Below are positions 10,186-53,891 of a stretch of DNA of 60,982 nt, in pieces (the first letter of the stretch is position 1; every line of letters begins with the position of its first letter). The notes under the pieces are model-generated. The model was not told where the DNA came from. It worked only from the letters and a program-made list of their open reading frames with translations, and did no database searches. The stretch comes from JBMFOH01 sp049969715 [NCBI: bacterium] (GTDB taxonomy: Bacteria > DUMJ01). Location of the stretch: positions 36,701 to 97,682 of the forward strand of contig JBMFOH010000004.1 in the NCBI GenBank assembly GCA_049969715.1, given 5' to 3'. Made by a program: the position numbers and the translations under genes.

Positions 10186-10964
10186 CTCTTATTAGTTTGA
10201 GATTGTTTTTTATTCTGATTCTGATTCTGAGTATGGCTTTGACTCTGATGTTGATTTTGTTCTTGGTTCTGCTCTTGATTCTGTTCTTGAATCTCAGCTT
10301 GTTCTTGATTCTGTGCCTCTTTTTTAACCATATCCTTAACCTCTTGTCTTACCTGCATTAGGGTAGAGACTATACTTTCTTCAGAGGTACCAAGTTCCGC
10401 CATAATCTTTGTCCAATTCTTATGTTGTTCTCTAAGCCTTAAGATATTATTTAGGGTATCAGCATTGATACTTCCCTGGCCTAAAGCGGCAGCAATAGAA
10501 TAAGCCATAAGGATATCCATCTGACTCACACCTTGAAGCTCTAGATTCTTCAACGTCTCTTCTGTAACCCCATAGTCTCTTTCTAAAAGATATTCTATAG
10601 CAGTATCTCTTATATTACTTTTACCTAGATTATGATATATACCTAACTTAGAGAGGTTTACATCAAAATGTTTAGCTATCTCTCCCCATCCTAAATCTGG
10701 ATTTGACAAGGCATAGTTTTTTATATCATCTAGAGAGATGCTTCCGTTACGTAGAACTATTGCGCACATAATAGCTATCTCTCCATATCCATAGCCTGAA
10801 TTGTAGAGAGTATTTATAGTGTCTGGGTTAAGGATATCGGGAAATGCACTTAAAAGAGCATTTACTACAACCTTATCCTCCAAAGAACTACTACTAGCAG
10901 CAAAAACTGGCAAATTATACAACATTACCCCTACTATAAGGAATAAAATCACTACTCTTTTCAC
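10182..10964 (-). CDS. Exported protein with internal repeat and Q/N-rich tail, unknown function
   Basis: A 260-residue protein that I cannot assign to a family. It starts at a GTG with a strong GGAGGTGA six bases upstream. Residues 1-23 form a Sec signal peptide (cleavage after VFA likely). About 48-101 and about 136-192 look like two copies of one unit: both have a helix, then AI-rich hydrophobic residues, then GSIS or GSIN, D-x-[IL], and W-x-[EK]-I. Residues 217-260 are an almost pure Gln/Asn/Glu tail built of NQEQ-like steps. It heads the operon with the FecR-domain gene, and both proteins end in hydrophilic low-complexity tails. Its promoter has a CRP-type site about 42 bases upstream of the predicted start. 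Confidence 0.8.
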   Translation of the reverse strand: MKRVVILFLIVGVMLYNLPVFAASSSSLEDKVVVNALLSAFPDILNPDTINTLYNSGYGYGEIAIMCAIVLRNGSISLDDIKNYALSNPDLGWGEIAKHFDVNLSKLGIYHNLGKSNIRDTAIEYLLERDYGVTEETLKNLELQGVSQMDILMAYSIAAALGQGSINADTLNNILRLREQHKNWTKIMAELGTSEESIVSTLMQVRQEVKDMVKKEAQNQEQAEIQEQNQEQNQEQNQHQSQSHTQNQNQNKKQSQTNKR

Positions 10965-45850: not shown

Positions 45851-47074
45851 TTGTTTAGTAGAATCAAGGGTAATGCTAAGGCTTGTTTAATGTTCGAACC
45901 TATGTGGGTAATTCCATTCAGTATGTTCAGTACATATGCATCAGTATATATGCTCGAATTAGGGGTTAAAGAAACTCAGATAGGACTTATAACATCAATA
46001 GGTTTAGCATTGCAGATCTTTACATCGTTCATAAGTGGACATCTTACTGATAGCCTTGGAAGGAGAAAAGCCCTTTTGATCTTTGACCTAGTAAGTTGGA
46101 GTATAGCTACCTTCATATGGGCTATATCTAAAAACTTCTGGTATTTCCTTATAGCAGCTATTGTAAATAGCTTTCAAAAGATCCCCAATACTGCATGGTA
46201 TTGTCTATTGGTTGAGGATACAGACCCTAAAGATAGGTCAGTTATTTTTACCATACTCCAAGTAATTAGTGTAATTGCAGGATTCTTCGCCCCTTTAGGA
46301 GGACTTCTAGTAAATAGATTCACACTAGTTCCCGCTGTCAGGCTTATGTATATAATAGCATTTGTAAGTATGACCATAATGTTCTTTATGAGGAATAAAT
46401 TCACATATGAGACTGAAATCAGTTTAAAGAAAAGTTTAGAAAGCACAAGGATCAATTTTATAGAAAGTCTAAAAGAATATAGAGATGTAACAAGAGAGAT
46501 ATTTACCAACAAGGCACTGTTGATCCTATTTAGCGTCTATATATTGAATAATTTCCAGATGACTATGAGCAGAACCTACCTCTCTATCTATCTGGTAGAT
46601 GCTTTGAAGCTCAATAAGGCACTGATAAGTATATTCCCTGCCCTCTCCTCTATAGCGATGTTATTATTGCTATTCTTCGTTATGCCCAGATTTAAAGAAG
46701 AAAACTCTAATAGATATATGATGATTGGGTTTATGGCATCTATGTGGGCTAGTTTAACTCTAGTACTAACACCACCTCAGAACGTTATAGGGGTAACTAT
46801 ATCTACAATAATGGCGGCTGTCGGTTCTATAGTAGCCAATCCCTATTTAGAAGCCACTATGGCAAACTCTATAGCTGATAATAATAGGGCAAAGATATTG
46901 GCTATTCTAACAGTACTTATTCTAGTATTTGTCTCTCCTTCTGGAATAATAGGGGGATGGACTTATACTATAAATCCTAAGATACCATTCCTACTTATAA
47001 CACTAGCATTTTTAATGAATATATCTCTAATGATTGCCTTTATTAGAGAAAAGAGAGAAAAAATTACACAATAA
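45851..47074 (+). CDS. Major facilitator superfamily transporter
   Basis: A 407-residue protein with about 12 TM helices. The conserved MFS loop 2-3 motif appears as GHLTDSLGRRKALL (about 58-71). The start is a TTG with AGGAGA upstream. It is adjacent to and divergent from the isomerase-DegT-nagA operon, so uptake or export of a sugar or amino sugar is plausible, though the family covers many substrates. Confidence 0.88.
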   Translation: MFSRIKGNAKACLMFEPMWVIPFSMFSTYASVYMLELGVKETQIGLITSIGLALQIFTSFISGHLTDSLGRRKALLIFDLVSWSIATFIWAISKNFWYFLIAAIVNSFQKIPNTAWYCLLVEDTDPKDRSVIFTILQVISVIAGFFAPLGGLLVNRFTLVPAVRLMYIIAFVSMTIMFFMRNKFTYETEISLKKSLESTRINFIESLKEYRDVTREIFTNKALLILFSVYILNNFQMTMSRTYLSIYLVDALKLNKALISIFPALSSIAMLLLLFFVMPRFKEENSNRYMMIGFMASMWASLTLVLTPPQNVIGVTISTIMAAVGSIVANPYLEATMANSIADNNRAKILAILTVLILVFVSPSGIIGGWTYTINPKIPFLLITLAFLMNISLMIAFIREKREKITQ

Positions 47075-47077
47075 AAA

Positions 47078-47107
47078 ACAATAAGAGCCCTTGAGGGCTC
47101 TTATTGT
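47078..47107. terminator. Rho-independent terminator after the MFS gene
   Basis: ACAATAAGAGCCC pairs perfectly with GGGCTCTTATTGT around TTGA (13-base stem), four bases after the MFS stop. On the plus strand the GC-rich part is followed by TTATTGT. The A-run before the stem makes an even better U-tract on the minus strand, so it may work in both directions. Confidence 0.75.
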
Positions 47108-47195
47108 AAGGGGGGTAGGTCATATGATGAGGTTACCTAGACTGCTAATCTATAATATTAATGCTATTAACTAGATATAGTATAAGTAGATACTG

Positions 47196-47234
47196 TTAAG
47201 ATAGAATTAAGAAAAGATTAAGATTATGTTAAGA
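47196..47234 (+). promoter_or_regulatory. Four TTAAGA direct repeats at 11-base intervals (PhoP/PhoB-type box)
   Basis: TTAAGA occurs at 47196, 47207, 47218 and 47229, all identical and separated by five bases each time. Direct repeats with one helical-turn spacing directly upstream of a -35 are the binding geometry of OmpR/PhoB-class response regulators; the B. subtilis PhoP box is TT(A/C/T)A(A/C/T)A with about 5-base spacers. The downstream genes are rpmB and ilvA. The regulator itself is not in this window. Confidence 0.6.
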
Positions 47235-47242
47235 CTTGACAC

Positions 47243-47270
47243 TTGACTTTAATCAGGTTTAAATGATAAT
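47243..47270 (+). promoter_or_regulatory. Promoter of rpmB-ilvA
   Basis: TTGACT (47243-47248), a 16-base spacer and GATAAT (47265-47270). A perfect TTGACA at 47236-47241 lies just ahead but has only TTAAAT at 17 bases. The TTAAGA repeats end nine bases before TTGACT and one base before TTGACA. Confidence 0.5.
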
Positions 47271-47332
47271 CTTATTAGGGATTGCCCTTGCCATTTGAAA
47301 TTAAAAAATTAAGATTACTAGGAGGGAAGCTT

Positions 47333-47512
47333 ATGGCAAAGAGATGTGCTATATGTGGTAAAGGACCAATATATGGGAATAATGTTAGCCATTCTAATAG
47401 AAAGACCCGTAGACGTTGGTTACCAAATCTCCAAAGGGTCAAGCTAAATATAAATGGCATAATAAAGAGAGCTTATGTCTGTACTGATTGTATAAAATCT
47501 ATTTCAGCCTAG
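47333..47512 (+). CDS. rpmB: 50S ribosomal protein L28
   Basis: A 59-residue L28 ([20 protein letters not shown], then [13 protein letters not shown]). Two CxxC motifs (CAIC and CTDC) mark it as the zinc-binding form. I start at the ATG at 47333, preceded by GGAGGG at six bases, rather than at upstream in-frame codons. The stop codon directly abuts the ATG of ilvA, an unusual partner for L28. Confidence 0.97.
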
Positions 47513-48715
47513 ATGGATATAACTGAAAGGCTAGAAAAGGCAAGGGCTGTTTTATCTCCTATAGTTCATAGTACCCCCTTACAGTATTCTTTTACCCTTT
47601 CTGAATGGGTGAGTCATCCTATCTATCTAAAGTGCGAGAACTTTCAAAAGACTGGATCATTCAAGGTAAGAGGAGCTTATTTCAAACTGTCACAACTTAC
47701 TCCAGTGGAGAGAGAAAAGGGTGTGATAGCCTGTTCTGCAGGAAATCATGCCCAAGGAGTAGCGTATGCAGCCTCTAAATTAGGCATAGAAGCTACTATA
47801 GTGATGCCTGAGTTTGCCTCTATTTCTAAGATAGAGGCTACCAAAGGATATGGTGGAAAGGTCATCCTTTACGGAGGAACCTTTGACGAAGCACAGGAAA
47901 AGGCTCTAGAAATCTCCAAAGATACAGGAAAAATATTTATCTCCCCTTACGACGACCTAGATATTATAGCAGGACAGGGAACAATTGGATTAGAGATACT
48001 AGATAAGTTACCAGATGTAGATATGGTGATGGTTCCAATAGGCGGAGGAGGACTAATTGCAGGGATAGCATCCGCGATAAAGAAGGTAAGGTCAAAAACC
48101 AAAGTAATCGGAGTACAAACTAAAGCCTTCCCCAATGTATATAATGCCCTTTCTAAGGGAAGAATCGACCTTGAGGGTTCCTCCGAAACAATTGCAGATG
48201 GAATAGCAGTAAAGAAGCCTGGGAAGTTAACCCTAGAGATTATATCCGATTTAGTAGACGATATCATTTTAGTAGAAGAAGAAGAGATTGCTAGTGCTAT
48301 TCTTTTTCTTTTGGAAAGATGTAAGATGATGGTGGAAGGGGCAGGAGCGGTAGGAGTAGCTGGTATAATGTATAATAAGACACTGTTAAAGGGTAATATA
48401 GTAGCTATTCTAAGTGGAGGGAATATAGATGTAAATCTTCTCTCTACCATCATTGAAAGAGGACTAACAAAATCTGGTAGAAGATTAAGATTTATTACTC
48501 CTATTCTAGATAGACCAGGAGAATTGAATAAACTTTTATCAATAATAGCTCAGGTAAAGGCAAACATTATCTCTATCCACCATGAAAGGTTAAACCCTAT
48601 ATTACCTATAGGCTCAGTAGAGGTGGAGATTTCAGTAGAAACAAGAGGAAAAGAGCACAGTCAAGAGGTTATAAACGCTATAAGTGCAGCCGGTTATAAA
48701 CTTTCTATACTATAA
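47513..48715 (+). CDS. ilvA: Threonine ammonia-lyase with C-terminal ACT domain
   Basis: A 400-residue PLP fold-II enzyme deaminating threonine to 2-oxobutanoate. The PLP lysine is Lys51 in FQKTGSFKVRGA, with SAGNHAQGVAYAA and the phosphate loop PIGGGGLIAG. The C-terminal ACT-like domain (about 325-400, LDRPGELNKLLSIIAQVKANI) is of the short TdcB/IlvA2 type seen in thermophiles. Together with ilvE it would serve isoleucine synthesis; a catabolic role is the alternative. It has no intergenic space after rpmB. Confidence 0.94.
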   Translation: MDITERLEKARAVLSPIVHSTPLQYSFTLSEWVSHPIYLKCENFQKTGSFKVRGAYFKLSQLTPVEREKGVIACSAGNHAQGVAYAASKLGIEATIVMPEFASISKIEATKGYGGKVILYGGTFDEAQEKALEISKDTGKIFISPYDDLDIIAGQGTIGLEILDKLPDVDMVMVPIGGGGLIAGIASAIKKVRSKTKVIGVQTKAFPNVYNALSKGRIDLEGSSETIADGIAVKKPGKLTLEIISDLVDDIILVEEEEIASAILFLLERCKMMVEGAGAVGVAGIMYNKTLLKGNIVAILSGGNIDVNLLSTIIERGLTKSGRRLRFITPILDRPGELNKLLSIIAQVKANIISIHHERLNPILPIGSVEVEISVETRGKEHSQEVINAISAAGYKLSIL

Positions 48716-50457: not shown

Positions 50458-52329
50458 CTACCTAAACTCCCAAGGGAATTTATGTTCTATAAGGTCAGCA
50501 AATCCATGATGGAATTTGTCACCAGTAGCAATAACAAAATGAACCTCTAGAGGCTTTTCTTTTCTCTCAACCTTTATAAAGAACTGATTCCATCCTTCTT
50601 TTAAGGCAGTTTCTACATAGCTTCTTCCATCTCCACCATAGTTCGGTCTTAAAATTCCTTCAGTTCTTACCTCATAGATCTTATTACCATTCAACCATAT
50701 CTTGAATGGGCAATTTGAAGGAAGTCCTACTCTTACTGGTCGAAGCTCTGGACTGTATACATAATGTCTCAGATAAATAACACCATCTTTCCCATCAAAA
50801 TAAGGCTCAACTACAAGCTCATTTCCATCAAAATTAACTACCTTCCAATCCCCACTAATTCCACTAGGATTTGGTTCACCCTCTAAAGTGAATTCTGTAT
50901 CAATATTTCCATCTAAGCGCTCAGAAACTAACCATTTATTAGATGCCACAAATACTATAGGGATGCTCTCTGTCTGGGGGCGATCTTTAATAGAGATATC
51001 TATATTCCCCCTATTTGATATGTCTAAAGCATTTACCTCATAAACCTTAAGGGAGAAAAATAAGGAAATCTCTTCTTGAGGTTGCAATGTAAGTTCTCTC
51101 ATCTTAGGAGAGACATCCCAACCTTCAGGGAATCTACAAGATACTTTAACTTCAAGAGGAATTAGTCTTAAGTTTTTCAGTATAACCTTGAACTCTTTAT
51201 CCACTTCCACCCTAATGGCAGGATTATCTATATAGTCTATAGATATATTCAAACTCGTAGTATCAAAATTCACTTTAGTTGGAGATGTCTTCCATAACTT
51301 CTTTACATCATCACTAACTAGAAATGGATCATGCCCATTTTCATATAGAGCTATAACCCTTTTACCTACTTTACAAACCCTCTCTGTAAGGTCATCTAAA
51401 TCCTTAGGTTCTCTTACATTTCTTATTCCCCCCCAAGAAGAATTAGTGACAATCTTATCACTGAGCGGTTCTATCCATTTCTTAGGGAGTCCATCCTTAC
51501 CTAGAATAATTCCTAATATAGATCCAAGAGTAGCGCCAGTACAGTCTGTATCATAGCCACAATTTACCGCCTTGCATATGGCATCACCAAAGTCTTCTCC
51601 ATACAGCCATCCTATGGTCTGAAAACCCAAGTTTACTGGAGAATACTGTGCTACTGGACTATAAGAATTCCTTAAAACGAAGTTTCTTGCATCTTTCCAA
51701 TCCATACCTTTCTGATAAGCAGTTATAGCATTTTTTATAGCCTTTGCTGTCTCACAGTTCTCTGGAATAAATGATAGCCCAATCTCTAGGAGCTTCATTT
51801 TATCAGAAATGACAAATGCGGCAGACTCTACCACTGCATTAAAAATTTCTCCGTATACCGACTCTCCTCCAGCATGATCTACTATTGCATCTTCATAAGC
51901 ATACCTGGCCGCAACATTTGGTAGCCCGGGTGCAATACAAGCCCAAATTTCAGAACGGATTGGACTTCCCATACAGTGCTTAAACCAGTTATTAAAATAG
52001 CCAGATACAGGTGGTACTAAGCCTTTTTTAAGATTCGTCTTATTCAGTCCATACTCATCAAAATTATAAACAATACAGTCTAACCAGTATTCTGCCAGGT
52101 CTCTAGCAGTAATATTGAGTCCTTTATCTTCAAGAGCTTGTAACCAGATCAACTGAAGTTCTAGGTCGTCATTCGGAAGTCCTCCCTCTTGAAGCTTCGG
52201 GTACCACCACACATCAAACATCTCTTCTTTCCCCCACATATTTTCGAGTGGGGTTCCTAGGGTACCCCCTGCATTTTTTCCTAGCCAACATCCATAAACT
52301 TTGTTATAATATTCTTGTTCAGACAACAT
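50458..52329 (-). CDS. ADP-ribosylglycohydrolase-fold protein with C-terminal beta-sandwich domains
   Basis: A 623-residue protein. The N-terminal ADP-ribosylglycohydrolase-like domain (about 5-330) keeps the metal-binding motifs: GKNAGGTLGTPLE, the acidic NDDLELQLIWL and the late GYDTDCTGATLGS. After about 350 there are one or two beta-sandwich regions (IEYIDNPAIRVEV-like, then a galactose-binding-like C-terminus with NGNKIYEV). Members of this enlarged group sit in carbohydrate clusters, and their true substrate is not known; an N- or O-glycoside with ribose- or sugar-like leaving group is possible. Paralogue of the next upstream gene, with composition like the bulk of the window. Confidence 0.87.
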   Translation of the reverse strand: MLSEQEYYNKVYGCWLGKNAGGTLGTPLENMWGKEEMFDVWWYPKLQEGGLPNDDLELQLIWLQALEDKGLNITARDLAEYWLDCIVYNFDEYGLNKTNLKKGLVPPVSGYFNNWFKHCMGSPIRSEIWACIAPGLPNVAARYAYEDAIVDHAGGESVYGEIFNAVVESAAFVISDKMKLLEIGLSFIPENCETAKAIKNAITAYQKGMDWKDARNFVLRNSYSPVAQYSPVNLGFQTIGWLYGEDFGDAICKAVNCGYDTDCTGATLGSILGIILGKDGLPKKWIEPLSDKIVTNSSWGGIRNVREPKDLDDLTERVCKVGKRVIALYENGHDPFLVSDDVKKLWKTSPTKVNFDTTSLNISIDYIDNPAIRVEVDKEFKVILKNLRLIPLEVKVSCRFPEGWDVSPKMRELTLQPQEEISLFFSLKVYEVNALDISNRGNIDISIKDRPQTESIPIVFVASNKWLVSERLDGNIDTEFTLEGEPNPSGISGDWKVVNFDGNELVVEPYFDGKDGVIYLRHYVYSPELRPVRVGLPSNCPFKIWLNGNKIYEVRTEGILRPNYGGDGRSYVETALKEGWNQFFIKVERKEKPLEVHFVIATGDKFHHGFADLIEHKFPWEFR

Positions 52330-52358
52330 ACACTAGCCTCCTTTTAAAAGTTTTTGTA

Positions 52359-53891
52359 TCAGTCTTTTGGTGCACTGGTAGAAGCAGGAATTGACCTTAC
52401 TGCTTCAGATCCAAGTATTATGAATTTTAGATTCTCACTTCTTTTTGCGGTTCTTATAGCCACCTCAAGGGTATTTTGTTTCTCTACTATATCAGCTAAA
52501 ATGCTAAACTTATAGTGACCAGCCTCTACTTCAAGAGTACTAACTTCCCATCCTACTGGAGTCTTCACTTCTATTCTTACTTCATCTATATTCACTGGTC
52601 GCCAATCTTTCATAAGCGAGATCTCAAATATTCGCCTTATACCAGGACGAAGTACAGGCTCTCCTCCATAGTGGAATACAACCTGCAAGTTATCAACCTG
52701 TTCAACAGAACAGTGCGGATCAAAAGTAAGTAAAGGTCTTATCTTTTCGTTGTCAAAAAGCAAAGACAATACATCATTAGGGATAGAAGTTTCTTCTGCA
52801 AAGGTAACAGTTTGTGATCGTTCAGAAATTAATCTTTCTGCCACTTGCTGTGTACGGGAGGTAAGGTCAGTAATTGTTAAGGGGAGCCCCTGAGTAATAG
52901 TTAATGGAACAGGTGTTATTGCATCCCCTACGGGTTTTTTCCACTCCTCAGGAATTCCAGATGCTCCATAAAGAATTCCCAGAAGAGACCCAAGGGTTGC
53001 ACCCGTGCAATCTGTATCATATCCACAGTTTACTGCCTTACAAAGTTTATCACCAAAATTCTTCCCATAGAGCCAGCCTATAATTGTAAATCCATGATTT
53101 GGAATGGCGTTACAGGCATTGTAATGCCCAAAGATAGTTACAATTCTCTCCCTGGCTTCACCCCAGGATATTCCCTCTTCATAGCATCGGACAGCTTCTC
53201 TGATACAACGGGCAATATGTGAAGATATTGGAATCATTGAAAGTCCTATTTCGATAAGTGTCTTCGGCTCATTAATGACAAATGCAGCACTTTCAACCGC
53301 TGCCCAGAACATCTCTCCCCATCGGCCTTCTCCACCTGTATGGTCCATCGAAGAATCCATCCAGGCAAGAGATGCTGCCAACTGAGGGTCTCCTGGAGCA
53401 ACACAAGCCCATATTTCACTCCGAATTGGAGAACCCATCTCATCAACAAAATAGTTCTGAAATGCACCTGAGATTGGTGGTTTTAAACCTCGATTGAGGT
53501 TATATGTGCAGAAACTATACTCAGCATACCAATGTTTATAAAGATGCTTCATCCAGTAGTCAACAAAATCATTAAATGTTGGATTTACGCCCCTATCTTC
53601 CAACATCTTTAGCCAGACAAGCTGAAAATCCAGGTCATCATTTGGAAGTGGCTGACCAGGGGACCAACTTTCACTGTTTATGATCATTTTCATCTCTGGG
53701 AAATATTGGTTATAAAATTGTTCTATCAATTTTAGCCACTTTTTCGTTGCATTCCAATCAAAATAGGTAAGCGCATTGGTGTACTTCTTACCTTCAAAGG
53801 GAGCACCAAGTGTACCTCCAATGTTTTTGCCAAGCCAACAACCTTTCATCTTGTCTAAATATACATCTCTGCTTATACAGAGTTTATTCAT
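52359..53891 (-). CDS. ADP-ribosylglycohydrolase-fold protein, second copy
   Basis: A 510-residue paralogue of the downstream gene with the same motifs (GKNIGGTLGAPFEG, LPNDDLDFQLVWL, GGEGRWGEMFWAAVESAAF, GYDTDCTGATLGSLLG). It lacks the long C-terminal extension but keeps a beta-sandwich (about 370-500). By eye its base and codon use differ from its neighbour: more GC, more CAG/CTC-type codons and fewer ATA, suggesting a different recent origin. Metal ligands appear intact. Substrate unknown. Confidence 0.87.
   Translation of the reverse strand: MNKLCISRDVYLDKMKGCWLGKNIGGTLGAPFEGKKYTNALTYFDWNATKKWLKLIEQFYNQYFPEMKMIINSESWSPGQPLPNDDLDFQLVWLKMLEDRGVNPTFNDFVDYWMKHLYKHWYAEYSFCTYNLNRGLKPPISGAFQNYFVDEMGSPIRSEIWACVAPGDPQLAASLAWMDSSMDHTGGEGRWGEMFWAAVESAAFVINEPKTLIEIGLSMIPISSHIARCIREAVRCYEEGISWGEARERIVTIFGHYNACNAIPNHGFTIIGWLYGKNFGDKLCKAVNCGYDTDCTGATLGSLLGILYGASGIPEEWKKPVGDAITPVPLTITQGLPLTITDLTSRTQQVAERLISERSQTVTFAEETSIPNDVLSLLFDNEKIRPLLTFDPHCSVEQVDNLQVVFHYGGEPVLRPGIRRIFEISLMKDWRPVNIDEVRIEVKTPVGWEVSTLEVEAGHYKFSILADIVEKQNTLEVAIRTAKRSENLKFIILGSEAVRSIPASTSAPKD

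Follow-up and report, generated by a model that had tools for sequence, protein, structure and literature searches.

CiaR is a regulator of the OmpR class, and the PmrA/BasR box has the form CTTAAG-N5-CTTAAG, in which each unit is palindromic. Pho boxes are described as two 11-nt direct repeats (PMC4415409) with a strict spacing to the promoter (PMC10294691). Publications on the CiaR-csRNA system give a site of the form TTTAAG-N5-TTTAAG lying 10 nt from the -10 box of sister RNAs with anti-Shine-Dalgarno and anti-AUG segments, and treat the final G of the TTTAAG unit as invariable (PMC8186281, PMC3091779). Small RNAs linked to PhoB are also on record: EsrL of enteropathogenic Escherichia coli is reported to be PhoB-controlled, with PhoB binding not seen in K-12 (PMC10294691), and a PhoB-induced RNA acting on rpoS receives mention in PMC8829014.

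The locus described here combines elements of these systems. It lies in a window of 60,982 nucleotides, the whole stretch of DNA that was analysed, and consists of an array of direct repeats between the plus-strand rpmB-ilvA genes and a predicted small-RNA gene on the minus strand. The features of the locus are the following.

45851 to 47074, plus strand: MFS-like transporter gene, an open reading frame whose MFS family matches all fall below their cut-offs; convergent with the small RNA.
47073 to 47172, minus strand: predicted small RNA of type A, about 100 nt, with its 5' end estimated as the seventh nucleotide after the -10 box.
47078 to 47107, minus strand: intrinsic terminator hairpin of 13 bp, predicted from fold and sequence and followed by a U run on the minus strand.
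47104 to 47148, minus strand: near-invariant core of RNA A, whose C-rich segment ACCUACCCCCC is complementary to ribosome-binding sites; a CAU (anti-AUG) is also present.
47179 to 47184, minus strand: predicted -10 box of the small RNA, TATACT, separated by 10 nt from the last CTTAAC 6-mer and identical at six of six positions in all three relatives.
47196 to 47234, minus strand: array of four 11-bp direct repeats, TTAAGA on the plus strand and CTTAAY-N5 on the minus strand; predicted Pho-type response-regulator site.
47243 to 47248, plus strand: -35 box TTGACT of the rpmB-ilvA promoter, conserved in relatives.
47267 to 47272, plus strand: probable -10 box TAATCT of rpmB-ilvA after an 18-nt spacer, TAACCT in relatives, assigned by reading.
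47333 to 47512, plus strand: rpmB, ribosomal protein L28 (TIGR00009, 84.9 bits, above cut-off).
47513 to 48715, plus strand: ilvA, threonine ammonia-lyase (TIGR01127, 502.8 bits, above cut-off).

The array is real and lies above chance expectation. Four exact TTAAGA units at an 11-base period had been reported in the initial annotation, and the same four starts are found in the window sequence (47196, 47207, 47218 and 47229); the array contains at least two 11-bp direct repeats, as expected of a Pho box. At up to three mismatches, the four-unit pattern has two matches in the window, which are two registers of the 47196-47234 array, and it is matched in 0 of 100 dinucleotide-preserving shuffles of the window. 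The top score of 24/24 compares with 21/24, reached once among 150 first-order Markov copies. Single TTAAGA pairs are not unusual within the window: at up to one mismatch there are five, with a shuffle mean of 2.23, and nine of 100 shuffles reach five. Beyond the array lie TTGACA at 47236-47241 and TTGACT at 47243-47248. Two further features of the window lie at a distance from this locus. At 50458-53891, two adjoining minus-strand open reading frames of 623 and 510 residues have similar N-termini and, read by eye, look like ADP-ribosylglycohydrolases. At 10212-10305, short tandem repeats of 6, 12 and 24 bp in the 3' part of an open reading frame give rise to a Gln/Asn-rich tail.

Conservation of the repeats in close relatives, left to be checked by the initial annotation, was followed through the IlvA protein. 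Among the best 80 of 245 loci encoding a relative of IlvA, the top three (L001, L002 and L003) show 75-76% identity over nearly the whole protein and the fourth 47%; the three belong to metagenome bins, whose genomes are referred to as G001, G002 and G003. The array and rpmB-ilvA occur together in all three, thus in four of four species with the window. The units are near-identical to those of the window (24/24, 23/24 and 24/24 positions in L001, L002 and L003), the fourth unit of L002 being TTAAGG, while identity in the spacers is 8/15, 11/15 and 6/15. TTGACT is kept as the rpmB -35 box in all three relatives; the TTGACA adjoining the array shows no conservation in L001-L003. Across the rpmB promoter stretch (47236-47273), each relative matches the window at 21 of 38 positions, and the rpmB leader is identical at 33/57, 35/57 and 28/54. 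Within this otherwise diverged leader, GCCCTTGCC (47284-47292) is kept in four of four species and may serve autoregulation by L28.

On the other side of the array, the core of the predicted RNA A is identical to the window at 45/45, 44/45 and 45/45 positions in L001, L002 and L003, with 14/24, 14/23 and 12/24 in the 5' part. The terminator letters agree at 18/29, 20/31 and 17/28 positions, and the relatives keep the hairpin with other stem letters.

Recurrence of the array was searched in G001, G002 and G003, in place of the window's own genome. The arrays recur there, so the repeats, whose uniqueness had been raised as a doubt, are not unique. If up to one mismatch is allowed, a pattern of three TTAAG units has 17, 12 and 15 matches in G001, G002 and G003 (overlapping registers counted), compared with 0, 0 and 1 for the reversed control, and the four-unit pattern with up to three mismatches has 23, 15 and 14, compared with 1, 1 and 1; some of the matches fall within genes. 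In 1,925,383 bases of G001, merged three-unit arrays scoring 14-15/15 occur at 10 places and in the reversed control at none. Arrays scoring 13/15 are mostly chance occurrences, since the reversed control gives 17 of these against 23. One of the ten top arrays lies inside a gene. The nine others adjoin three small RNAs (A, B and C), a 28-residue open reading frame at a proA locus, two genes for SBP_bac_5 proteins, one for an alkaline phosphatase with a PstS-like protein encoded behind it, and genes for a DUF4032 protein and for a LacI regulator. No zinc genes were recognised among the genes adjoining the arrays examined.

The direction in which the arrays act is suggested by their distance to a -10 box. 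On the opposite strand the units read CTTAAY and are separated by 5-nt spacers; TAnnnT follows the last 6-mer at a spacing of 10 in eight of the nine G001 loci, which are not fully independent, as the alkaline phosphatase and the two SBP promoters look related. At other spacings from 0 to 49 it occurs in at most two of the nine, and in the opposite direction the maximum is three. The TAnnnT form was chosen after the TATAAT score of the -10 search had proved uninformative. Counting the nine G001 loci together with their recognised counterparts, 21 of 23 sites have the spacing of 10 (A 4/4; B, C, small-ORF, alkaline phosphatase and DUF4032 loci 3/3 each; the two SBP loci 2/2, in G001 only; LacI locus 0/2 genomes), a fixed distance to the -10 box such as a Pho box has. 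Two further sites of two units each, upstream of pstC in G001 and G003, have no TAnnnT at this spacing; with them the count is 21 of 25.

Several individual loci are worth recording. The minus-strand reading frame at the proA-type locus (L113, L120 and L124) encodes a conserved hydrophobic 28-residue sequence, MMKRxLIIFFGLSAL..., with a GGAGG site, an array and -10 box at N10 upstream and a terminator-like hairpin downstream, and is likely an array-controlled small membrane protein. Transcripts of the alkaline phosphatase and of the two SBP_bac_5 genes (L111, L115 and L117) would share a leader around GATGNGGTGAGGTATAA, L111 less closely, perhaps as copied promoters or as a common RNA element. 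A weak array in G002 (L172, G002:C56:8576-8613), with three mismatches of 20 and TATTTT at spacing 10, was left out of the 23-site count; it precedes an open reading frame that, by reading, resembles a 5'-nucleotidase, and an array is absent from the counterpart in G001.

Searched across 59 genomes with up to two mismatches, the promoter pattern has matches in 17. G001, G002 and G003 contain 15, 13 and 12, compared with 0 in the reversed control, and the other 14 genomes contain 1 to 4 each, among them G054 (4, control 1), G049 (3, control 0) and G018 (2, control 0), together with single matches in G030 (one mismatch only) and G048 (no mismatch). The G048 site (L321), in a distant genome, is one mismatch-free three-unit CTTAA array with TAnnnT at the same spacing.

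In the relatives, sister RNAs are predicted beside hpt (B) and leuD (C), with the same layout of array, N10, -10 box, RNA and terminator as at A. A covariance model built from ten sequences of A, B and C, window A included, gives three strong matches in each of G001, G002 and G003 (60.9-80.0 bits), all of which are the model's own members and lie beside arrays. The next-best match in these genomes has 28.0 bits, eight weak ones in all reach E 1, and no further strong family member was seen in the three genomes. In the 56 other of the 59 genomes, searched with stricter filters and at most 87 candidates scored per genome, the model has no match at E ≤0.001. The single strong match in the window is A itself (71.7 bits, 47073-47148), a sequence contained in the model, and the next has 17.8 bits. 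Outside the three known members, G002 contains a weak match of 28.0 bits and E 0.0046 (L303, G002:C66:8105-8152). An Rfam scan of the window returned no match at gathering score, and thus no known RNA family for the window; the best sub-threshold match at the locus is RefA9, with 30.7 of 49 bits and on the opposite strand. Judged from the sequence comparisons, the conserved target of the array is most likely a previously undescribed divergent small RNA, one of three sisters.

The assignment of the site to the PhoP/PhoB/OmpR class, proposed from the window alone, gains support from the genes that bear the same repeats in the relatives' genomes and from the presence of OmpR-family regulators. 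In G001, the genes behind one array encode an alkaline phosphatase (PF00245, 278.5 bits) and a PstS-like protein (PF12849, 167.9 bits), and an array is also found at a look-alike alkaline phosphatase gene in G002 and G003; the Pfam assignments were made in G001, and similarity at the N-terminus identified the genes in G002 and G003. Upstream of pstC-pstA-pstB-phoU, looked at in G001 and G003, there is a two-unit site, TCTTAACAATTTCTTAAAA, in both genomes and no three-unit array; phoU was called by PF01895, and the pst genes from inspection of their sequences. In 1,925,383 bases of G001 there are 24 exact two-unit sites, compared with 8 in the reversed control. The relatives' genomes thus carry the same repeats at phosphate-uptake and phosphatase genes.

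OmpR-family regulators (PF00486) number one each in G002 and G003 and two in G001. Among NCBIfam models, the shared regulator scores 295 bits with YycF (cut-off 340), 263.5 with MtrA (300) and 256.1 with PhoB (296.2). The best model for the adjoining kinase is PnpS, at 364.4 bits (cut-off 400), and its WalK score of 322 bits is also below cut-off; neither protein passes any NCBIfam equivalog cut-off. Because no regulator score passes its cut-off, the label PhoB/PhoP-type draws mainly on the site-bearing genes, and a WalR-like role is possible. On the evidence of these genes, the array is most likely a predicted Pho box of a PhoB/PhoP-type (OmpR-family) regulator.

By reading, the cores of A, B and C all hold a C-rich stretch complementary to the Shine-Dalgarno sequence, and A and C, but not B, have a CAU rightly spaced for AUG. 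The predicted folds pair parts of the A and B segments, so an unpaired state is itself a prediction. Duplex energies were computed against 1623 G001 gene starts, with eight shuffles per RNA. Those of A are weaker than seven of eight shuffles at rank 10 and six of eight at rank 50, those of B better than all eight at both ranks, and those of C better than six of eight at rank 10 and all eight at rank 50 and weaker than six of eight at the top. This prediction yields no clear target list among the G001 gene starts for any of the three RNAs.

The predicted pairing favours one gene class. In roughly 2 Mb of G001 there are 39 SBP_bac_5-like open reading frame models, some of them fragments, which is many for the genome size. 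Within 719 genes that have a GGAGG site, the 33 SBP_bac_5-like ones show stronger predicted pairing than the others with A (p 0.0048), B (p 0.0051) and C (p 0.0011); the count of these genes overstates the evidence, because they are paralogous and the 39 models include a few fragments. A bias as extreme is seen in 0/150, 4/150 and 0/150 shuffled cores for A, B and C, and average pairing with gene starts as strong in 32/150, 0/150 and 2/150, by which B and C surpass shuffled cores in general and A does not. In an unmatched form of the SBP test, with six shuffled cores each, single shuffled cores reach p 0.026 (A), 0.020 and 0.0025 (B) and 0.017 (C). By core pairing, the SBP gene at G001 C18:29699 stands at rank 2 for A, 4 for B and 18 for C among the 1623 gene starts. 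Since the SBP genes are paralogues, we treat the bias as a lead only, with ABC solute-binding-protein genes as candidate pairing targets of A, B and C.

The DNA itself shows a conserved array that recurs at phosphate genes, a fixed spacing, and an RNA family with its terminators; the regulator, the sister RNAs and the phosphate genes are seen in the relatives only, which are metagenome bins whose completeness is not given. The explanation that best covers these features as a whole, to which we assign a probability of about 0.7, is that the Pho box array drives the minus-strand small RNA under phosphate shortage. When phosphate runs short, a PhoR/PnpS-like kinase would phosphorylate a PhoB/PhoP-type response regulator, which would occupy the four CTTAAY-N5 units in head-to-tail order, standing in for a -35 element. 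The bound regulator would recruit RNA polymerase to TATACT 10 nt further on, giving a minus-strand RNA from 47172 to 47073, and the two sister RNAs, present in the genomes of the relatives, would be turned on likewise. The C-rich segment of each RNA may then pair with Shine-Dalgarno regions, and for two of the three RNAs with the start codon as well; this pairing would lower translation of the target mRNAs, plausibly including those of ABC solute-binding-protein genes. In this scheme we infer the identity of the regulator, phosphate as the signal, expression of the RNAs and repression of their targets.

The locus could also be read toward the plus strand. The initial annotation had the array controlling rpmB-ilvA. 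Such control might act by activation from upstream of the TTGACT box or through shared control of both divergent promoters. A conserved TTGACT -35 box does start 9 bp past the array, and the units at the LacI gene and at pstC likewise lie upstream of ordinary-looking promoters, but no -10 spacing is conserved on the TTAAGA side across the nine G001 loci, and the spacing that is conserved points the opposite way, into the small RNA. The promoter stretch at 47236-47273 keeps just its 21 of 38 positions, and the TTGACA next to the array is unconserved. At the proA-type array of G003, another gene replaces proA on the TTAAGA side while the array and the small open reading frame on the CTTAA side stay, and at the hpt locus the TTAAGA-side neighbour is convergent. 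For want of a conserved spacing there, and in view of the G003 proA-type locus, direct control of rpmB-ilvA is placed second as a main role for the array and appears unlikely; an additional effect of the array on the rpmB promoter is conceivable. A far less probable reading takes the conserved block as a cis-acting plus-strand element in the leader of rpmB, and likewise of leuD, where the GGGGGG motif might precede a leader peptide. At rpmB and leuD the plus strand does offer what reads as a ribosome-binding site with an ATG, but in copy B this ATG is missing and no gene follows on the plus strand, and both the U run of the hairpin and the phased -10 box belong to the minus strand; a leader peptide or attenuator is ranked low for these reasons.

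The small RNA, rather than either plus-strand unit, thus remains our preferred target, and the question of its signal brings in a further alternative. The arrays might be sites of a general envelope-stress regulator resembling WalR or CiaR, with the small RNAs answering some other signal than phosphate. NCBIfam places YycF/WalR above PhoB for the shared regulator, and the two SBP_bac_5 genes, the DUF4032 gene and the LacI gene that bear arrays are not classical Pho genes. Against this, units are borne by the alkaline phosphatase-pstS operon and by pstCAB-phoU, and the partner kinase is closer to PnpS (364 bits) than to WalK (322 bits), both below cut-off. We consider an envelope-stress role doubtful and favour phosphate control of the small RNAs.

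With phosphate as the signal, the apparent oddity of a response regulator acting on a ribosomal protein and threonine deaminase gives way to a coherent regulon. The interpretation predicts a small-RNA family not described before, together with the switch that controls it and a target class that can be tested, in bacteria known here only as metagenome bins. Its furthest extension is a phosphate-starvation regulon of an uncultured lineage with a post-transcriptional arm, in which three sister RNAs pair with translation starts and lower a large set of ABC solute-binding proteins, in a layout nearly that of CiaR-csRNA and reached independently; we hold this tentatively, at somewhat below even odds. 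If true, it would be a further case in which a two-component system drives sister RNAs directed at ribosome-binding sites, here in another physiological setting.

Comparison with known systems places the locus between several of them. The PmrA/BasR box has the same TTAA core and 11-bp period, but its units are palindromic, unlike those of the array. EsrL is likewise a small RNA reported to be PhoB-controlled, but it is a single RNA; in the parts of the literature on phosphate-regulated small RNAs with Pho boxes that our searches covered, the precedents are single RNAs and none matches the A, B and C family. With the Pho box and the PhoB/PhoP regulon, the system shares tandem 11-bp direct repeats at alkaline phosphatase-pstS and pstCAB-phoU and a distance to the -10 box that is mostly fixed. 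The unit is different, CTTAAY in place of CTGTCAT (E. coli) or GTTCACC (Streptomyces); the arrays extend to as many as six units, and the apparent targets include a small-RNA family and a small hydrophobic protein.

The likeness to CiaRH and the csRNAs of streptococci extends to TTAAG-type 6-mers, 5-nt spacers, 10 nt from the last unit to the -10 box and then a terminator, and several sister RNAs with anti-Shine-Dalgarno segments, here three predicted paralogues per relative genome; the arrays and predicted RNAs here have this 10-nt spacing and terminator throughout the family. In contrast, the arrays here also lie at phosphate genes, the hosts are uncultured and known from bins without a streptococcal name, and no Rfam family was matched in the window. 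Along the direction of transcription, the units read CTTAAY and not NTTAAG-N5-WTTAAG with its final G. Because this invariable G is absent, we do not count the system as a member of the CiaR-csRNA group, though it would work alike. The ordinary part of the predicted system is its Pho box; the unusual part is a three-member small-RNA family placed under it.
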